Assembly: GCA_015068655.1 (NCBI GenBank)
Contig: SVKC01000010.1
Coordinates: forward strand, 1 to 49,491
Length of the DNA: 49,491 bases
From: Oscillospiraceae bacterium
GTDB taxonomy: Bacteria; Bacillota; Clostridia; Monoglobales; Monoglobaceae
Reading direction: 5' to 3'
In this document: positions 1-8,711 of the stretch, in pieces
Position numbering within the stretch: the stretch's first letter is position 1
Layout: the number at the start of each line of letters is the position of its first letter
Translations under genes and position numbers: made by a program
The notes under the pieces: generated by a model
What the model saw: the letters and a program-made list of their open reading frames with translations, nothing else
Told to the model about the DNA's origin: nothing
The model's database searches: none

Positions 1-411
1 TGTGACCGTGTATTGGATGGGACATCCCGCCTTTATACGTATCAGGTTAAAACCTGCCATGCGGTACTAAAAGTTTTTTTGCGGTGCTGTGGGCAGTGTA
101 GCCTGCCTTGAGTGGTTATGGTGAATAATTGTTCAGCCTGTTGATTCTCGGCCAAGAACCAACAGTTATCGCTTTTTGAAACCATAATTGCAAAAGAGGC
201 TAAGAAATGTATGTAGCTGTCGGGGAAAACCCCTAGACCGGTACGCATATACAGGATTGTAGTGTGTACTCAGTGGCAATCAGGTAACGCAGAGACATTC
301 TTTTGTCTCATCGGTAACGGTGCGTGGCAGACTTTAAACGGAAACATCCCTTTCGGCGACGATTGGGAAGTCTGACGGGAAATCCAACCTGACCTAAGGC
401 ACAAAATTTAC
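1..411 (+). ncRNA. ole: OLE RNA (3' portion, cut by the left window edge)
   Basis: This gene-free stretch of about 410 nt has no credible coding frame but is rich in potential stems, for example GGGG-AAAA-CCCC near 213-222. It lies directly upstream of a small multi-spanning membrane protein gene that is followed by dxs, tlyA, nadK and recN. That is the characteristic setting of the large OLE RNA (about 600 nt, anaerobic and extremophilic Firmicutes), which sits in isoprenoid operons next to the gene for its binding protein OapA. OLE forms a membrane-associated ribonucleoprotein linked in Bacillus halodurans to ethanol, cold and metal-ion stress. The call rests on gene context and structure, not on a covariance-model hit. 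The 5' part lies outside the window, and the exact 3' end, probably near the oapA start, is not resolved. Confidence 0.8.
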
Positions 412-466
412 TGTGTGTGCTACCCTTTTTTATTCTCAAATACCATTTTACGGAGATGAAATTCTT

Positions 467-1051
467 TTGAAAGACGACATACCTCGAAAACAGAAAGTAA
501 AGTTCAAGCCTGCATCATCCAAAAAGACGGATGTTTCCTGGATTGTAAAAACAATAATCATAACCTTCACAATGTCCGGAGTATTCAACATACTTTCCAG
601 CGGTATTATGAATATGTTGAACATCTGGATTGCGGTTCTGATACTGCTTCTTATCATTCTTTGCGGTATACTGTTTGATATAATCGGTATGGCAGTAACA
701 ACTGCCGATGAAGCACCTTTTCACTCTATGGCAGCAAAAAAGGTCAAGCACGCAAATACTGCAATTAATCTCGTGAAATCCAAGGATAAGGTTTCAAATT
801 TCTGCAATGACGTTGTCGGTGACATTTGCGGAATTGTCAGTGGTTCTGCCTCTGCCGCAGTTGTAGCATATATTGTTCAACTGACACCCATTTCAAACAG
901 CTTTGTTATAAGTCTTCTTATTACTGCATCTGTTGCAGCTGTTACCGTTGGCGGAAAAGCTATGGGAAAAACTATTGCGATAAAATACAGCAACTTTATC
1001 GTCTACAACGCCGCAAGAATTATCTCTGTATTCGGAATACGAAAAAAATAA
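467..1051 (+). CDS. oapA: OLE-associated membrane protein OapA
   Basis: This is a membrane protein of about 195 aa with a basic N-terminus (PRKQKVKFKP) and three to four hydrophobic segments: roughly residues 27-50, 56-78, 126-143 and 148-166. A polar stretch follows the second segment (TTADEAPFHSMAAKKVKHA) and resembles the DUF21/CorC-type core to which OapA is distantly related. In the known family, an OapA dimer binds OLE RNA and carries it to the membrane. I chose TTG at 467 because GGAGATG at 452-458 is well spaced from it. A GTG at 413 in the same frame would add 18 residues with no clear ribosome-binding site and would run into the RNA. The gene lies between OLE and dxs, 48 nt upstream of dxs. 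The family call depends on topology and context. Confidence 0.78.
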   Translation: MKDDIPRKQKVKFKPASSKKTDVSWIVKTIIITFTMSGVFNILSSGIMNMLNIWIAVLILLLIILCGILFDIIGMAVTTADEAPFHSMAAKKVKHANTAINLVKSKDKVSNFCNDVVGDICGIVSGSASAAVVAYIVQLTPISNSFVISLLITASVAAVTVGGKAMGKTIAIKYSNFIVYNAARIISVFGIRKK

Positions 1052-1099: not shown

Positions 1100-2962
1100 A
1101 TGAGTAAAATTCTGGATGAAATAAATTCATCAGCTGATATAAAGAAACTAAATATCCCCGAACTCAATACACTTGCGGAAGAAATCCGTAAGTTTCTTGT
1201 TGAGAACATTTCGAAAACAGGGGGACATTTGTCTTCAAACCTTGGAACAGTGGAGCTTACCCTTGCACTGCACAAGGTTTTTGACTTTTCATACGACAAA
1301 ATAGTATGGGATGTGGGACACCAGAGCTATACCCACAAAATCATAACGGGGCGAAAAAATCTTTTCAATACACTTCGCCAGAAAGACGGTATAAGCGGCT
1401 TCCCCAAGGTTGAGGAAAGCGAATCTGATGCATTCAACACAGGTCACTCTTCCACCTCTATATCTGCCGCTCTCGGTTTTGCGGAAGCTTTTGAGCTTTG
1501 CGGAAGCTCTTCCCGGGCTGTTGCTGTTATCGGTGATGGGGCTCTCACGGGTGGTATGGCATATGAAGCTCTCAATCAGGCAGGAAGCAGCAAATCACCG
1601 CTGATTGTTATTCTCAATGACAATGGTATGTCTATTTCAGAAAATGTAGGCGGAATTTCTCAATCTATGCGAAAAGTTACCAGCCACGCAAAATATATTG
1701 ATGCAAAAACGTCTTTGAAAAAATTCTTGCAAAATCTGCCACTTTTTGGTCAACCCTTTGTTGATATAATTATACGAGGAAAAAGACTTCTGAAAAATGT
1801 CCTTTTCCAGAAAAAGCTATTTGAAAATATGGGGCTTGAATACTTAGGTCCTGTTGACGGACATGACCTGAAGGAGCTTATAACTATCATAAATTACGGA
1901 AAAAGCCTGTGCAAGCCCGTAATCATTCACGTTCTTACACAAAAGGGCAGAGGCTATGCCCCGTCGGAAAATGACCCATCATTTTTTCATGGAGTTGGAC
2001 GCTTTGATCCCGAAACAGGTGAGCCTGTATCATCAGGTACGGAAACCTATTCCGATGTTTTTGGCGACGAAATAGTGAAGCTCGCAAAGGAAAATCCGAG
2101 ACTTGTCGGCATAACTGCTGCAATGCCTCTGGGAACCGGTCTTATCAAGTTTGCAAACATCTTTCCTGACCGATTCTTTGATGTAGGTATTGCAGAGCAA
2201 CATGCTGTTACCTTTTCTGCCGCAATGGCACTTTCCGGATATATTCCTGTTTTTGCAGTATACTCAACCTTCCTTCAGCGTGGTTATGACCAGATTATAC
2301 ACGATGCAGCTCTCCAGAACCTTCACGTTGTCTTTGCAATCGACCGTGCAGGAGCATCAGGAAATGACGGTGAAACACATCAGGGAATTTATGACCTTTC
2401 ATACCTGTCCCATATCCCCAATATGACAGTTATGGCACCATCATCAAACGAAGAACTCCGATTAATGCTGCGTCATGCAGTGAATGACTGTTCAGGACCT
2501 GTTGCAATCAGATATCCGAAGGGAAGTAATCCTGCAAATGCTGACGCTTGCCACCCAGTCTCATACGGCAAAGGAATTGTTGAAAAAGAAGGTACTGATG
2601 TTCTTCTTGTGGCTCTCGGTTCGCAAGTTCAGGAGGCTATGAAAAGTGCAGAGCTCCTTGAAAATCATGGAATTTCTGTTGCTGTTATGAATGCACGCTT
2701 TTTGAAGCCCTTCGATGAAGAACTGTTCTTGAAACTGAAGGATGGCAAAAAACTTATTGCTACATTGGAAGACAACGTTTGTATCGGCGGACTTTCTTCC
2801 ATTGTACGCCGTATTGTGAACGAAAACATTCTGGACTTTGGTTTTCCCGACAAGCCCTTGTCACAGGGAACTGTTTCTCAGCAAAAGGCTTGGGCTGAAA
2901 TAGATGCACAACACATTGCAGAAAAAATAATTAATACACTTGAGGGTGATAACCGTGGCTAA
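1100..2962 (+). CDS. dxs: 1-deoxy-D-xylulose-5-phosphate synthase
   Basis: This is a cytoplasmic thiamine-diphosphate enzyme that condenses pyruvate and glyceraldehyde 3-phosphate, the first step of the MEP isoprenoid pathway. The protein is 620 aa, the usual family length. The N-terminal half carries the TPP/Mg motif GDGALTGGMAYEALNQ and an early HLSSNLGTVELT stretch. The middle has DVGIAEQHAVTFSAA with the catalytic Glu, followed by DRAGASGNDGETHQG. A transketolase C-terminal domain ends the protein. The start is ATG at 1100. The stop overlaps the tlyA start by 8 nt, implying co-transcription and probably translational coupling. The neighbours oapA, tlyA, nadK and recN match the usual clostridial isoprenoid/repair cluster. 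Confidence 0.96.
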   Translation: MSKILDEINSSADIKKLNIPELNTLAEEIRKFLVENISKTGGHLSSNLGTVELTLALHKVFDFSYDKIVWDVGHQSYTHKIITGRKNLFNTLRQKDGISGFPKVEESESDAFNTGHSSTSISAALGFAEAFELCGSSSRAVAVIGDGALTGGMAYEALNQAGSSKSPLIVILNDNGMSISENVGGISQSMRKVTSHAKYIDAKTSLKKFLQNLPLFGQPFVDIIIRGKRLLKNVLFQKKLFENMGLEYLGPVDGHDLKELITIINYGKSLCKPVIIHVLTQKGRGYAPSENDPSFFHGVGRFDPETGEPVSSGTETYSDVFGDEIVKLAKENPRLVGITAAMPLGTGLIKFANIFPDRFFDVGIAEQHAVTFSAAMALSGYIPVFAVYSTFLQRGYDQIIHDAALQNLHVVFAIDRAGASGNDGETHQGIYDLSYLSHIPNMTVMAPSSNEELRLMLRHAVNDCSGPVAIRYPKGSNPANADACHPVSYGKGIVEKEGTDVLLVALGSQVQEAMKSAELLENHGISVAVMNARFLKPFDEELFLKLKDGKKLIATLEDNVCIGGLSSIVRRIVNENILDFGFPDKPLSQGTVSQQKAWAEIDAQHIAEKIINTLEGDNRG

Positions 2963-3764
2963 AATCAGACTTGATGTATACCTTGCAGAAAACGGTCTTG
3001 CTCCCAGCCGCAGTGCGGCACAGGCAATGATTATGGCAGGGGATGTTTATGTTGACAACCAAAAAGCTATGAAGGCGGGCGAAACGGTCAAAGGAACCGA
3101 AAACATCGAGGTCCGTGAAAAAGGGCCTTCCTATGTCAGCCGCGGCGGTCTCAAGCTTGAAAAAGCAATGAAGGTATTTCCCGTAACTCCGTCAGAAAAA
3201 ATCTGTATGGATATAGGTGCATCAACCGGTGGTTTTACCGATTGTATGCTTCAAAACGGAGCACTGAAGGTTTATTCCGTAGATGTTGGCTATGGTCAGC
3301 TTGCCTGGAAGCTCCGCCAGGATGAAAGAGTTGTCAATATGGAACGTACCAACATACGTTATATAGACAAAAATCTGATTGAAGAACCACTGGGTTTTTT
3401 TTCAGTTGATGTTTCCTTCATATCACTGAAGCCCGTTCTTCCTGTTGCCTATGACCTTCTTGAAGACGGCGGTGAGGGTGTTTGTCTGATAAAGCCGCAA
3501 TTCGAAGCAGGACGTGAAAAGGTAGGCAAAAAAGGTGTTGTAAGAGAAAAGTCAACACATATTGAAGTTATTGAGAATGTACTTGCCTTCACGAAGGAAA
3601 TAGGTTTTTCTGTCAAAGGTCTTGATTTTTCTCCCATAAAAGGTCCTGAAGGCAATATTGAATACCTTATGTATATAAAAAAAGACGACTCTGTTTCTGC
3701 GGAATTTGATATTCCCACACTTGTGGAAGCATCCCATGAACTAAACTCAAAAAACGAAAACTAA
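2955..3764 (+). CDS. tlyA: TlyA-family 2'-O-ribose rRNA methyltransferase
   Basis: The product has an N-terminal S4 RNA-binding domain (about residues 1-60, beginning AKIRLDVYLAENGLAPSRS) followed by an FtsJ/RrmJ-like SAM-dependent methyltransferase domain with DIGASTGGFTDCMLQ as the SAM site. TlyA proteins in actinobacteria methylate 16S and 23S rRNA and determine capreomycin sensitivity. The older name hemolysin A is misleading. I chose GTG at 2955 because GAGG at 2942-2945 is well placed and the protein then begins at the S4 domain; an upstream in-frame start at 2940 lies deeper inside dxs. Length is 269 aa, typical. The gene overlaps the end of dxs and lies 12 nt before nadK. Confidence 0.92.
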   Translation: MAKIRLDVYLAENGLAPSRSAAQAMIMAGDVYVDNQKAMKAGETVKGTENIEVREKGPSYVSRGGLKLEKAMKVFPVTPSEKICMDIGASTGGFTDCMLQNGALKVYSVDVGYGQLAWKLRQDERVVNMERTNIRYIDKNLIEEPLGFFSVDVSFISLKPVLPVAYDLLEDGGEGVCLIKPQFEAGREKVGKKGVVREKSTHIEVIENVLAFTKEIGFSVKGLDFSPIKGPEGNIEYLMYIKKDDSVSAEFDIPTLVEASHELNSKNEN

Positions 3765-3776
3765 GGAGGGTTTTTT

Positions 3777-4625
3777 ATGCAACGAATTGCTCTTTTTGTC
3801 AACAAAAGCCGTGACACGGATTTTTCAGCAACAAAAGAAATTATATCCCTTCTGAAAAAATATAACAAAACCGTCATTTTGGACGTATCCCTCAAGGATG
3901 AGCTGGATTTTCCGGGCTTGTTCTTTGCAAACGGTGACGGTATTTTTGAAGAAAGTGACATGGTTATTGCTCTCGGCGGTGATGGTACAATTCTCAAAAC
4001 CGTTAATCAGGCGGCAGACTACAATGTTCCTGTTGCAGGAATAAACTTGGGACATCTGGGCTTTCTCACCCTCGCAGAACGCAACGACCTTTCCAATCTT
4101 GTAAAGATTTTGGAAGGAGATTTTTCGGTTGAGCACAGAATGATGCTTGAAGCAAGAATTACATCCGGCAAGGATGTCAAGGAAACATATACCGCTCTTA
4201 ACGATATTATTATTCGAGGTAACTCTGCAAAAATGATTTCACTTACCGCAGAGGTTGACGGGACTACGGCAGGCGAATACCTTGCTGACGGGATAATTGT
4301 TTCAACATCAACAGGCTCTACCGCCTACTCCCTTTCCTGCGGAGGACCTATCGTGCACAAAAATCTTGATTGTATGATAATGACACCTATATGCCCTCAC
4401 ACACTGAAATCAAGGTGTATTGTTATTTCACCCGATTCCACCATTTCTGTGAAGTTTGACGCATCATATTGCAGTGAGGTTGACCTCAAAATTGACGGAA
4501 GCTCCGCAAGACGTATGCGAGCAGACGAATATATAGAAATAGTACGAAGCAAAAAGCGTGTCCCTATGATTAGTGTTGACACAAGAGACTACTTTGATGT
4601 TATCCGTGAAAAATTATCCGACTAA
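3777..4625 (+). CDS. nadK: NAD kinase
   Basis: NAD kinase phosphorylates NAD to NADP using ATP or polyphosphate and is a cytoplasmic housekeeping enzyme. The protein is 282 aa. It shows the family motif GGDGTILK at about residues 64-71, GINLGHLGFLT, and STSTGSTAYSLSCGGP in the C-terminal beta domain. The start ATG at 3777 has a strong AGGAGGG ribosome-binding site just upstream. In many Clostridia argR lies between nadK and recN; here only 23 nt separate nadK from recN and argR is absent. Confidence 0.95.
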   Translation: MQRIALFVNKSRDTDFSATKEIISLLKKYNKTVILDVSLKDELDFPGLFFANGDGIFEESDMVIALGGDGTILKTVNQAADYNVPVAGINLGHLGFLTLAERNDLSNLVKILEGDFSVEHRMMLEARITSGKDVKETYTALNDIIIRGNSAKMISLTAEVDGTTAGEYLADGIIVSTSTGSTAYSLSCGGPIVHKNLDCMIMTPICPHTLKSRCIVISPDSTISVKFDASYCSEVDLKIDGSSARRMRADEYIEIVRSKKRVPMISVDTRDYFDVIREKLSD

Positions 4626-4648: not shown

Positions 4649-6343
4649 ATGCTCAAAGAATTACATATCAAAAATATTGCCGTGATTGATGAAGTTCATA
4701 TTGAATTTTCCGATGGTTTCAGCGTTCTCACAGGTGAAACCGGCGCAGGTAAGTCTATTCTCATTGATTCAATAAATATGGCACTGGGCAAACGTGTAAG
4801 TCACGACCTTATTCGAACCGGTTGTGACAAAGCCACTGTCAACGCCTGCTTTGAAGTCACAAACAGTACAATTCTTGAAGCTCTCTCGGATATGGGTATT
4901 GAAGCAGAAGACGGTCTTATCACTATAAGCCGCCAGCTCACACTTGACGGAAAATCCACTTGCCGTGTAAATGGGATAATTATGCCACTTGCTGTTGTTC
5001 GTGAAGCGACAGCATTGCTCATTGATATTCATGGTCAATCTGACAACAGAATGCTTCTTGACCCTCACAGTCATCTTGACTTTCTTGACAGCTTCGGAAA
5101 TCTTTTGGATAGCCTTGAAGAATACAAAGCATCATATAAGGAAATGAAAACAATAACAAAAGAAATTGACGGACTTTCTTCAAATCTTGAAGAAAAGCAA
5201 CGAAGACTTGATCTGCTCACATTCCAGATTGACGAAATAAATGCCGCAAAGCTGAAGGTTGGCGAGGATGAAGAGCTTGAAACAAAAAGAGATTATCTAT
5301 ACAATATGGAAAGTATTGTATCTGGAGCAGGCGCCGCCTATGGAGCACTTTACGGCGGCGAAGAATATTCTGCTTATGACCTTCTTCGGCAAGCCGAAAG
5401 AAGCTTGTCGGGAATAAGTCAGTTTCTCCCCGCTCTTTCCGATTGTGCCGAAAGACTCGATAGTATTATTGCAGAAACAGAAGATATTTCATCTGAAATA
5501 AACAACTGTCTCTCAAACTCCGATTTCAGTATGGCAGAGCTTGACAGTATTGAAGAACGTCTTGATACGATTGGCAACCTGAAACGAAAATACGGAAATA
5601 CAATTGAAGAAATTATTAACTACGGAAAAACCGCAGAGCTTGAAGCATCTTCTATTGAACAATGTGACAGCAAGCTTGAAGAACTGCACTTGCGTCTTTC
5701 GGATGTCAATGCACAGCTTGAGCAAAAAGCAAATATACTTACACAGAAAAGACTTTCTGTGGCAAAAGAGCTTGAAGCTCGCATTTCCACAGAGCTTGAA
5801 GAGCTTGATATGCCCAAGGTTCGTTTTTCAATCACACTTTGTGACCGAATAACTGACGGAAATATTACTTATACAAACACAGGGAAGGATAACGTAGAAT
5901 TCCTCCTTTCCACCAATCCCGGTGAAGCTTTGAAGCCAATGTCAAAAATTGCGTCAGGCGGCGAGCTTTCACGTATTATGCTTGCCATAAAAACAGTTCT
6001 TTCCGACACAGATGATATTGACACTATGATTTTTGACGAAATTGATACTGGCGTAAGTGGCAGGGCAGCACAGAAAATTGCCGAAAAACTCAGCTGTCTC
6101 GGAAAAAATCGTCAGGTTTTCTCGATTACACACCTTGCGCAGATTGCAGGAATGGCAGACAACCATTATCTTATCAAAAAAACTTCTACAGATGCAAGCA
6201 CCTCCACCTCTGTCACCGCCCTTGATTCTGACGGCAGAGTAGACGAGCTTGCAAGAATTATTGGTGGCGTAACAGTCACCGACCTCACACGCAGAAGTGC
6301 ACTTGAAATGCTTGAAATGGCAAAAAAAATTAAGGAACAGTAG
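4649..6343 (+). CDS. recN: DNA repair protein RecN
   Basis: RecN is an SMC-like ATPase that acts in double-strand-break repair. The 564-aa protein starts with the Walker A sequence GETGAGKSILIDSIN near residue 30. It has a long central coiled coil rich in Glu, Leu and Lys (about residues 150-370). The ABC signature IASGGELSRIMLAIKTVL and Walker B TMIFDEIDTGVSG follow, then FSITHLAQIAG, all in the expected order. The start ATG at 4649 has AAGGACGTGA upstream. It is co-directional with nadK and the RseC-like gene and lies 4 nt upstream of the latter, so it appears to be part of the OLE/dxs operon. Confidence 0.96.
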   Translation: MLKELHIKNIAVIDEVHIEFSDGFSVLTGETGAGKSILIDSINMALGKRVSHDLIRTGCDKATVNACFEVTNSTILEALSDMGIEAEDGLITISRQLTLDGKSTCRVNGIIMPLAVVREATALLIDIHGQSDNRMLLDPHSHLDFLDSFGNLLDSLEEYKASYKEMKTITKEIDGLSSNLEEKQRRLDLLTFQIDEINAAKLKVGEDEELETKRDYLYNMESIVSGAGAAYGALYGGEEYSAYDLLRQAERSLSGISQFLPALSDCAERLDSIIAETEDISSEINNCLSNSDFSMAELDSIEERLDTIGNLKRKYGNTIEEIINYGKTAELEASSIEQCDSKLEELHLRLSDVNAQLEQKANILTQKRLSVAKELEARISTELEELDMPKVRFSITLCDRITDGNITYTNTGKDNVEFLLSTNPGEALKPMSKIASGGELSRIMLAIKTVLSDTDDIDTMIFDEIDTGVSGRAAQKIAEKLSCLGKNRQVFSITHLAQIAGMADNHYLIKKTSTDASTSTSVTALDSDGRVDELARIIGGVTVTDLTRRSALEMLEMAKKIKEQ

Positions 6344-6347
6344 TTTT

Positions 6348-6731
6348 ATGGAAAAAACCGGAATAGTAATTGAAACAACAGGTGAATATATGCTCGTCTC
6401 TGTCCACCGTGATTCTGCCTGTGGCGAAAACTGTGCTGCTTGCGGACTTTGCAAAAACAACAGAGAAATGACTTTGCGACTCAAAAACACAGATAACTTC
6501 AAGATAGGAGAAGCTGTTCGCCTGACATCCGACGACAAAAAGTTTTTGCATCACTCTGCCGCAGGGTATCTCAGTCTTACTGCACTCCTCATTACAGGGG
6601 GCATTATCGGAGGATTTTTGGGCGGTGATTGGGCAGCATTTTTGGGGGCTTTCTTCGGATTACTTATTGGAATTATGTTATTGAAACTGTCCTTTAAGGA
6701 TAAACTTGAAATAACAGCAGAAAAGGCTTAG
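6348..6731 (+). CDS. SoxR-reducing / RseC-family membrane protein
   Basis: This 127-aa protein has an N-terminal cysteine cluster (CGENCAACGLC, about residues 25-35), a short beta-rich linker, and two adjacent hydrophobic helices (about residues 72-115) with the glycine-rich segment GGIIGGFLGGDWAAFLGAFFG. That is the architecture of the RseC/MucC family. Its relatives work in SoxR reduction in E. coli (RsxC context) and in many anaerobes sit near Rnf genes, but no rnf genes are seen here. The start is ATG at 6348, immediately after recN, because the longer frame begins inside recN. Its role in this operon is unknown; a redox or thiol role is an inference from the Cys cluster. Confidence 0.8.
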   Translation: MEKTGIVIETTGEYMLVSVHRDSACGENCAACGLCKNNREMTLRLKNTDNFKIGEAVRLTSDDKKFLHHSAAGYLSLTALLITGGIIGGFLGGDWAAFLGAFFGLLIGIMLLKLSFKDKLEITAEKA

Positions 6732-6740
6732 AGGTACAAT

Positions 6741-8666
6741 ATGCTTATAACCATTGACAACCTGAGCAAAAGCTTCGGACAGGAAGAAATATTGAAAAAT
6801 GTAAAGTTGACCGTAAACGAAAAATGTCGTTACGGTCTTATTGGGGTGAACGGAGCGGGAAAATCCACCTTGCTGAAAATAATTATGGGTACCCTTTCCT
6901 TTGAAGAAGGTGAGGTTATAAAAAAGCCCGGTCTCAAAATAGGTTATCTTGAACAGAACAACGGACTTGAACGTGACAGCTCCATAATTATTGAAATGCG
7001 CAAGGTTTTTGAAGACGTATATGAATCGGAACAAAAAATGCGTGCTCTTGAGCTTGAAATGGCAGAAATATCAGACCAAGACTCAGACGAATACAGGCGT
7101 ATTGCCTCTGAGTATACCCGTGCTCAAAACTTCTTCGACAGCCGTGACGGATATAATATTGACGTCAAAATCAAGACAATCCTCAATGGTATGGGCTTTG
7201 GTGACAGGGATATGGATACTGTTATTTCAACACTCTCCGGCGGCGAAAAAACTCGTCTTGCAATCGCAAGACTTCTTCTCGAAGAGCCTGAGCTTCTCAT
7301 TCTTGACGAACCTACAAATCACCTTGATTTCAAGACTCTCAAATGGCTTGAGGAATATCTTGTCAGCTATAACGGTGCTATTCTCACCGTTTCCCATGAC
7401 AGATATTTTCTCGATAAAATTGTCACACATATATATGAAGTGGAACGCGGACGAGTTTATTCCTACGCAGGAAACTACTCCAAATATCTGCCACAGAAGG
7501 CTGAACGTCGCGCCCGTCAGGAGAAGGAATATGAAATGCAGCAAATGCAGATTGCTCAGCTACAAACCTATGTAGATAAGAACATAGCACGTGCTTCAAC
7601 CTCAAACAGTGCAAAATCAAGGTTGAAAACTCTTGAAAATATGGAAATTATCGAACGCCCTGATGGGGATTTAAAATCTATGCGGCTTCGCTTTGAGCAC
7701 ACAAAAGACCCCTACAAAGATGTGCTTACAGTGACAGACCTTGATATTGCCGTCGGCGAGGAACAAAAGGTTCTTTGCCGTAACATCAACCTTGCCGTAA
7801 AGAAAAAGGAAAAGATTGCAATAATAGGTTCAAACGGCATCGGTAAATCCTCTTTCCTGAAAATTATTCAGGGAATTATCCCCCACTACAAAGGAAATGT
7901 TGAATGGGGCAACAATGTAAGCATCAGCTACTACGAACAGGAAATTTTGAACCTTAATCAAGACAAAATAGCACTTGACGAGCTTTGGGACAGATTTCCT
8001 GATGTACCCGAAGCTGAAATACGCAGGGTACTTGGAAACGTTCTTCTTACGAAGGACGATGTCTTCAAGCCTGTAAAAATAATCAGCGGCGGCGAACGGG
8101 CGAAGCTCGCCTTCTGTATAATTATGCTTGAAAAGGCAAATGTCATAATCCTTGACGAACCTACAAACCATCTTGATCTCGCGTCAAAGGAAGTCCTTGA
8201 AGAAGCTCTTTCAGGATACGAGGGAACTCTTATATTTGTTTCTCACGACCGTTATCTTCTCAACAAGGTGCCTGACAAAATAGTAGAAATAAACCGGAAT
8301 GGTCTGCGAGTTTTTCAGGGAAACTACGATTATTATTGTGAAGTTCTTGAACGTGAAGCGTTGAGCGATGCTGAAGCAGCTGCAGCCCATGCAGCCGCAA
8401 AAGCCGCAGAAGCTGTGAAAAATCAAGCAGCTACATCCTATCGTTCAAAAGAACAGCGCCGTCTTGAAGCACAACGAAAAAATCGCATCCGTGAGCTTGA
8501 AGAACTTATTGAAGAAACCGAAACAAAGCTTTCTTTGCTTGAAGAAGAAATGACTACGGAAGCTGTTTTTTCCGATTACAAGCTTATGACCGAAAAATGT
8601 TCAGAAGCGGATGCTCTTCGTCAGAATCTTGAAAAGTATTATGATGAGTGGGGAGAGCTTGAATAA
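6741..8666 (+). CDS. ABC-F family ATPase (translation factor/Uup-like)
   Basis: This soluble 641-aa protein has two tandem ABC ATPase domains and no membrane segments, the hallmark of the ABC-F family, which acts on the ribosome. Domain 1 has Walker A GVNGAGKSTLLK, signature LSGGEKTRLAIARLLL and LLILDEPTNHLDF. Domain 2 has GSNGIGKSSFLK, ISGGERAKLAFC and VIILDEPTNHLDL. A charged inter-domain linker and a C-terminal coiled coil (about residues 560-641, preceded by an Ala-rich stretch) resemble Uup/YfmR-type members, whose roles include relief of stalled ribosomes. Antibiotic-resistance ABC-F subtypes cannot be excluded from sequence alone. It is the last gene of the operon and ends at a strong hairpin. 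Confidence 0.9.
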   Translation: MLITIDNLSKSFGQEEILKNVKLTVNEKCRYGLIGVNGAGKSTLLKIIMGTLSFEEGEVIKKPGLKIGYLEQNNGLERDSSIIIEMRKVFEDVYESEQKMRALELEMAEISDQDSDEYRRIASEYTRAQNFFDSRDGYNIDVKIKTILNGMGFGDRDMDTVISTLSGGEKTRLAIARLLLEEPELLILDEPTNHLDFKTLKWLEEYLVSYNGAILTVSHDRYFLDKIVTHIYEVERGRVYSYAGNYSKYLPQKAERRARQEKEYEMQQMQIAQLQTYVDKNIARASTSNSAKSRLKTLENMEIIERPDGDLKSMRLRFEHTKDPYKDVLTVTDLDIAVGEEQKVLCRNINLAVKKKEKIAIIGSNGIGKSSFLKIIQGIIPHYKGNVEWGNNVSISYYEQEILNLNQDKIALDELWDRFPDVPEAEIRRVLGNVLLTKDDVFKPVKIISGGERAKLAFCIIMLEKANVIILDEPTNHLDLASKEVLEEALSGYEGTLIFVSHDRYLLNKVPDKIVEINRNGLRVFQGNYDYYCEVLEREALSDAEAAAAHAAAKAAEAVKNQAATSYRSKEQRRLEAQRKNRIRELEELIEETETKLSLLEEEMTTEAVFSDYKLMTEKCSEADALRQNLEKYYDEWGELE

Positions 8667-8667
8667 G

Positions 8668-8711
8668 AAACGAACATCCTGAAATGCAACTGCATTTCAG
8701 GATGTTCGTTT
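8668..8711. terminator. Bidirectional rho-independent terminator
   Basis: A perfect 21-bp stem (8668-8688 with 8691-8711) and a 2-nt loop lies between the convergent ABC-F and M20 peptidase genes. It has A/T tracts on both sides, so it can end transcription on both strands. Its right end touches the M20 stop codon. Confidence 0.9.

Follow-up and report, generated by a model that had tools for sequence, protein, structure and literature searches.

A genuine OLE RNA gene and oapA head the dxs operon of an uncultured gut clostridium, and a close relative lacking both carries mpfA

Introduction

Does the gene-free stretch that heads the dxs operon of an uncultured clostridium encode OLE RNA, and what do close relatives carry when this RNA is missing? 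OLE counts among the largest of those bacterial RNAs for which no biochemical task is known. The RNA has its own promoter, dimerises, and binds two copies of OapA per RNA together with OapB and OapC. The resulting particle is located at the membrane and is required in cells stressed by Mg2+, cold or alcohol. Three reports describe the dimerisation, the binding of OapA at a ratio of at least 1:2, and the requirement for OLE in Mg2+, cold or alcohol stress (PMC12265935, PMC12286853, PMC11332333). Moreover, according to Fernando and Breaker (PMC11332333), OLE and the Mg2+ transporter MpfA are anticorrelated across Bacillota, and MpfA as the all-protein counterpart of OLE is already in print, based on this phylum-wide anticorrelation and on unpublished rescue data.

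The window analysed here is the whole stretch of 49,491 nucleotides of contig SVKC01000010.1 (assembly GCA_015068655.1). The initial annotation had described a gene-free structured stretch, a small membrane-type protein and then dxs-tlyA-nadK-recN, all of which are present as described. The locus belongs to a known RNA class, correctly called in an uncultured gut lineage. All genomes compared are drafts or metagenome-assembled genomes (MAGs).

Results

OLE RNA gene at the window start

The search with the Rfam covariance model proposed in the annotation returned an OLE match (RF01071) at window positions 1-442, scoring 261 bits (E 1.7e-73) against a gathering score of 50. The match covers model positions 200-616 of 616 and extends about 30 nt beyond the 1-411 given earlier. 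Because the first base of the window is also that of contig C18 in the assembly, about 200 5' positions of the model lie off the contig. Of the other eight genomes in the genus, seven have full 1-616 matches and G007 has no match; the 5' third of the RNA, including P4, P5 and the OapC k-turn, lies within the full matches of these seven congeners. The mature 3' end of the RNA is probably near 425-440.

Ten related OLE sequences were compared over the 3' two thirds. Changes on both sides with pairing kept in at least one sequence occur at 41 of the 100 predicted pairs, as counted with no phylogenetic control, and every one of the ten homologous sequences has at least three stops in each of the six frames. 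Stops in all frames together with pair-keeping changes therefore mark window 1-442 as RNA-coding rather than protein-coding, and the coding conservation in 1-411 that the annotation had set against an OLE assignment was not found. By its model position, the GGCC palindrome (Table 1) falls in what we take to be loop L9.3. Kretsch et al. (PMC12286853) describe L9.3 as the loop through which the OLE dimer forms a symmetric kissing interaction.

The gene shares with the full-length OLE class a match far above the cut-off, covarying helices, the GGCC loop, and oapA and dxs downstream. It differs in that the contig start truncates the window copy, and in that the host belongs to a gut-type clostridial MAG lineage instead of being an extremophile in the usual sense; OLE in gut clades was already known, as PMC11332333 indicates. 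OLE variants 1 and 2 (TANB77/RF39) have shortened or absent P7, P8 and P9 and are missing OapB and OapC. In contrast, matches in the congeners span the whole model, and both OapB and L7Ae proteins occur here, which favours the full-length class, the comparison being made at the level of the whole model. The named congeners are MAGs; wherever a sample source is given, it is sheep, goat, deer or buffalo. The host is an uncultured ruminant-gut-type clostridium.

Covariance model, neighbouring protein, synteny and covariation agree, confirming that window 1-442 is a genuine OLE RNA gene which, together with oapA, heads the dxs operon as the annotation had proposed. In G004, the OLE-oapA-dxs locus occurs twice (L013 and L014), on a 316-kb and a 5-kb contig, with oapA 99.8% identical; the second copy is probably strain variation in the bin.

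Table 1 Features of the OLE-oapA-dxs locus in the window
Feature	Position	Strand	Evidence and remarks
OLE RNA gene, 3' two thirds	1..442	+	RF01071 261 bits; covariation in 10-sequence alignment; no open frame
GGCC palindrome in OLE loop	150..153	+	G150 G151 C152 C153 invariant in 10/10 sequences
oapA, 194 aa, TTG start	467..1051	+	SD-like GGAG at 452-455; DVVGD (DxxxD) at residues 115-119
dxs, 1-deoxy-D-xylulose-5-phosphate synthase	1100..2962	+	TIGR00204 749 bits
tlyA family rRNA methyltransferase	2940..3764	+	TIGR00478 259 bits; true start may be inside ORF
nadK, NAD kinase	3777..4625	+	PF20143, PF01513
recN	4649..6343	+	TIGR00634 537 bits
RseC/MucC-family protein	6297..6731	+	PF04246 66 bits; overlap with recN end, actual start probably downstream
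ABC-F ATPase	6741..8666	+	NF000355 459 bits

OapA and the other partner proteins

The oapA start lies 25 nt past the end of the OLE match, and the ole-oapA adjacency is also seen in nine relatives. The start is placed at TTG 467 rather than at the in-frame GTG 413 within the RNA because TTG-AAA is kept in all eight genus genomes having the gene. OapA is 68-74% identical to the proteins of seven congeners and 52-53% identical to those of two g5 genomes. The DxxxD motif is invariant in 11/11 alignment rows, and third codon positions of oapA are the most variable. In PMC11332333, DxxxD is a distinctive feature of OapA and a weak CNNM similarity of this protein is published. The window protein likewise shows a weak match to the CNNM domain PF01595 (24.8 bits, below the cut-off of 28.4). 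Like the known family, it adjoins ole and combines the DxxxD motif with weak CNNM similarity and a basic N-terminus; nothing of note sets it apart, its length and TTG start included. An AlphaFold2 model built from ten sequences is all helical, with a confidence (mean pLDDT 56.5, pTM 0.41) too low for a fold search.

The search for the other OLE partners recommended in the annotation located both OapB and a YbxF/OapC-type protein in the window's genome. OapB was identified by its position between map and infA, which is the same in the window's genome (G000), G002, G004, G006 and also G007. The G004 protein matches the OLE-associated protein B of PDB 7k9b over 84 residues (E 5.1e-13), and the G000 protein is 72% identical to that of G004. 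A search with the KOW domain was discarded as a route to OapB, its main matches including ribosomal protein L24 (L139); the other main matches are presumably NusG, judged by their length.

Two L7Ae-type proteins are present in all nine genomes of the genus. One of those in G000 is of the YlxQ type and lies beside infB; the other is of YbxF size (83 aa), has 58 bits to PF01248, and matches a B. subtilis-type YbxF (PDB 4lck) with 9.2e-11, with archaeal L7Ae scoring slightly higher. By sequence, this 83-aa protein is of YbxF/OapC type and a candidate k-turn binder. OapC of B. halodurans is YbxF (PMC9723947). G007, a genome without OLE, retains both OapB and the L7Ae kind, and this fits the published occurrence of these proteins without OLE. 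In addition, comparison of OapB identities gave no clear sign of relaxed constraint in G007 (55-66% to the others, versus 54-67% for G002).

OLE and MpfA in the family and the order

Within the family (38 genomes), a CNNM protein above the cut-off is found in 0/10 genomes with OLE versus 27/28 without it. Over the order (51 genomes, including the same 38), MpfA-type (CNNM) proteins pass the cut-off in one of the 20 genomes with OLE versus 28 of the 31 without. The exceptions in the order, at the thresholds used, are G041, which has both OLE and MpfA, and G009, G038 and G039, which have neither. Fisher tests give 2e-8 (family) and 6e-10 (order), values that overstate the association because they are uncorrected for kinship, and the 28-genome tree requires only two changes of OLE state. 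The chance that incompleteness alone hides MpfA in all ten OLE genomes of the family is about 1.6e-8, independence being assumed.

MpfA was not found in the window's genome, whose only CNNM match is OapA. The MpfA/CorC/CorB family is an alternative to the OLE locus and not a part of it. At G004:C11:6602-6943 (minus strand), a 163-aa frame has a weak CNNM match of 18.7 bits, under the cut-off, and is neither OapA nor MpfA.

The empty OLE-oapA site of G007

G007 is sister to G002, deep within the window's genus, with support of 100/99 in the operon-protein tree, which comprises the 28 of 38 family genomes whose dxs locus was retrieved. Its gap between argH and dxs is only 165 bp, lies on one contig, and contains neither ole nor oapA. 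The gene argH is directly upstream of OLE in G001, and elsewhere or beyond reach in the other congeners examined. The gap contains a promoter region identical to the OLE promoters of G006 and G002 at 37/44 and 32/45 positions, respectively, and none of 585 control windows of G007 (from 600 drawn) reaches either value. For G001, G004 and G003 (region L129), the OLE promoter matches the gap at chance level, being equalled by 33, 342 and 118 of the 585 controls, respectively. Moreover, the sequence before the G007 dxs retains the TATGGTGT..ATG form of the oapA-dxs junctions of its congeners. On the simplest reading of these sequences, ole-oapA would have been excised in G007, so that dxs would now be driven by the promoter left behind. 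In the G007 leader that separates this promoter from dxs (L083:10200-10272), inspection by eye shows two small inverted repeats, CTTAGGAGTATCCTAA and ATCTGAG..CTTCAGAT.

The mpfA gene of G007

The sole CNNM protein found in G007 carries the full domain set of the MpfA/CorC/CorB family, namely CNNM (168.9 bits), CBS (59 bits, in two stretches) and CorC_HlyC (41.3 bits). Its identity to the proteins of the two g8 genomes is 76 and 73%, and it forms a clade with them that is supported at 100/100. This clade stands apart from the main MpfA clade of the family, on long branches and with unsure deeper joins. In the ribosomal protein tree (21 of the 23 genomes requested), g8 falls outside the clade of eight sampled genomes of the window's genus, g1 (100/99), the order of g1, g2, g5 and g8 being uncertain in this tree.

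The mpfA gene lies 240 bp beyond a tRNA-Lys(CTT) that follows ntpABD. The same tRNA-Lys stands after ntpD in 4/6 congener loci and is followed there by different genes; a search of 1.5 kb found mpfA near ntpD in none of the six. The GC content of the gene is 0.36 versus 0.40-0.44 for the neighbouring ntp genes. Over the 4.5 kb beyond mpfA, a search for a repeat of the tRNA-Lys 3' end that could mark an attachment site was negative. A single gain of mpfA is more parsimonious than a history with three or four losses, and g8 would be a candidate donor.

The motif GTGGACCCGTTACC, with AGGAG upstream and TGCCTCT downstream, occurs in the mpfA leaders of G007 and of G032, a g8 genome (L082:7320-7450 (-) and L172:7043-7078 (-)). 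Among 175 loci compared, the motif and its flanking bases are common to these two genomes only; the hits L082/L103 and L114/L172 represent two places, each recorded twice. No Rfam family scored above its cut-off at either leader. The motif could be a structured regulatory RNA.

Proposed replacement of OLE-oapA by mpfA and rival explanations

Taken as a whole, our data make it likely that a genuine OLE RNA and OapA head this dxs operon, that OLE-OapA and MpfA behave as alternatives in this lineage, and that G007 deleted OLE-oapA and carries an mpfA of imported appearance, which we infer to have taken over. In this proposal, OLE-OapA would perform a task at the membrane, in Mg2+ efflux or in membrane stress, and a CNNM-CBS-CorC protein could assume it. 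In a lineage that had gained mpfA, OLE-oapA would have become dispensable and could be dropped. OapB and the L7Ae proteins would have been retained in G007 for other roles. That mpfA would have replaced OLE-oapA in function is inferred from G007, the one draft genome available for its species.

The loss of OLE-oapA and the presence of mpfA in G007 may instead be unrelated, with the former reflecting a reduced lineage and the latter an accessory gain by tRNA-Lys. A single case cannot show linkage, the three genomes with neither gene agree with independent events, and gene gain beyond tRNA-Lys seems common because that region differs in each congener examined. The mutual exclusivity over the order (1/20 vs 28/31) and the very small probability that incompleteness hides MpfA from all OLE genomes of the family speak against coincidence, which we regard as unlikely while giving it some weight. 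It is rather improbable that the g8-type mpfA is ancestral, kept in G007 alone and lost in its OLE-bearing relatives, so that G007 underwent OLE loss without any gain. Gene trees do not separate gain from repeated loss, and g8 and g1 are neighbours in the uncertain part of the ribosomal protein tree; yet this history requires at least three to four losses (in G002, in G001 together with G006, in a five-genome clade and in g5) versus one gain, and the low GC of mpfA relative to ntp and the six congener ntpD loci devoid of mpfA also argue against it.

An artefact of assembly or binning, with OLE-oapA present in the living species, is a further concern with G007, which is 88% complete and in 50 contigs, as MAG assemblies can drop or collapse sequence. 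We hold this to be very improbable, since argH, the 165-bp gap and dxs are continuous on one contig, the gap joins the kept promoter to the dxs start through a genus-like TATGGTGT..ATG leader, and the operon groups with that of G002. As to the window itself, only two thirds of the model are on the contig, and stretch 1-411 might be a mere untranslated leader or a decayed gene resembling OLE. The probability of this is negligible: 261 bits against 50, full-length copies in congeners, covariation, the conserved promoter and the partner proteins refute it at the level of sequence and structure.

Whether OLE-OapA and MpfA are truly interchangeable modules, with G007 as a natural complementation experiment, is a more tentative matter, to which we give somewhat less than an even chance. 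On this view, an mpfA with a leader of its own would have come from a g8-like neighbour and settled beside tRNA-Lys, after which ole-oapA would have been excised between the promoter and dxs. OLE RNA would then make the contribution to a bare CNNM-like OapA that MpfA receives from its CBS and CorC_HlyC domains. What the present comparison adds is an exchange within a genus, in which the published anticorrelation is seen as a swap between near relatives. No such within-genus swap was found described in the literature searched, and the tree figure of PMC11332333, a source available in part, may contain one without comment. With an apparent excision scar and a candidate donor gene identified, the idea that both do the same job can be put to a complementation test on a precise genome pair and a defined gene.

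The dxs operon, RseC and ABC-F

The order dxs-tlyA-nadK-recN is found in all 28 family loci, ten with OLE and 18 without. RseC follows recN in 24/28 of these loci overall and in 14 of the 18 OLE-less ones, where one locus scored as lacking RseC (G015) is cut off by the end of the examined region. An ABC-F gene closes the operon in 16/28 loci overall, including 6/18 without OLE. The suggestion in the initial annotation that RseC and ABC-F may be informative about OLE fails, because both occur in the same operon in OLE-less loci, and the two were rejected as OLE-linked genes. Their occurrence tracks phylogeny, not OLE.

Directly 3' of the ABC-F gene, between convergent genes, window 8668-8711 holds a near-perfect inverted repeat. 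Matches of Rfam microRNA families at this position, selected by E-value, are due to chance and caused by the inverted repeat. The repeat is possibly a bidirectional operon terminator, and it went uncounted in the terminator scan because of its long stem or a missing T run. In the g8 genomes G031 and G032 (80-82% complete), no dxs match was found at E 1e-40, which may reflect another isoprenoid route.
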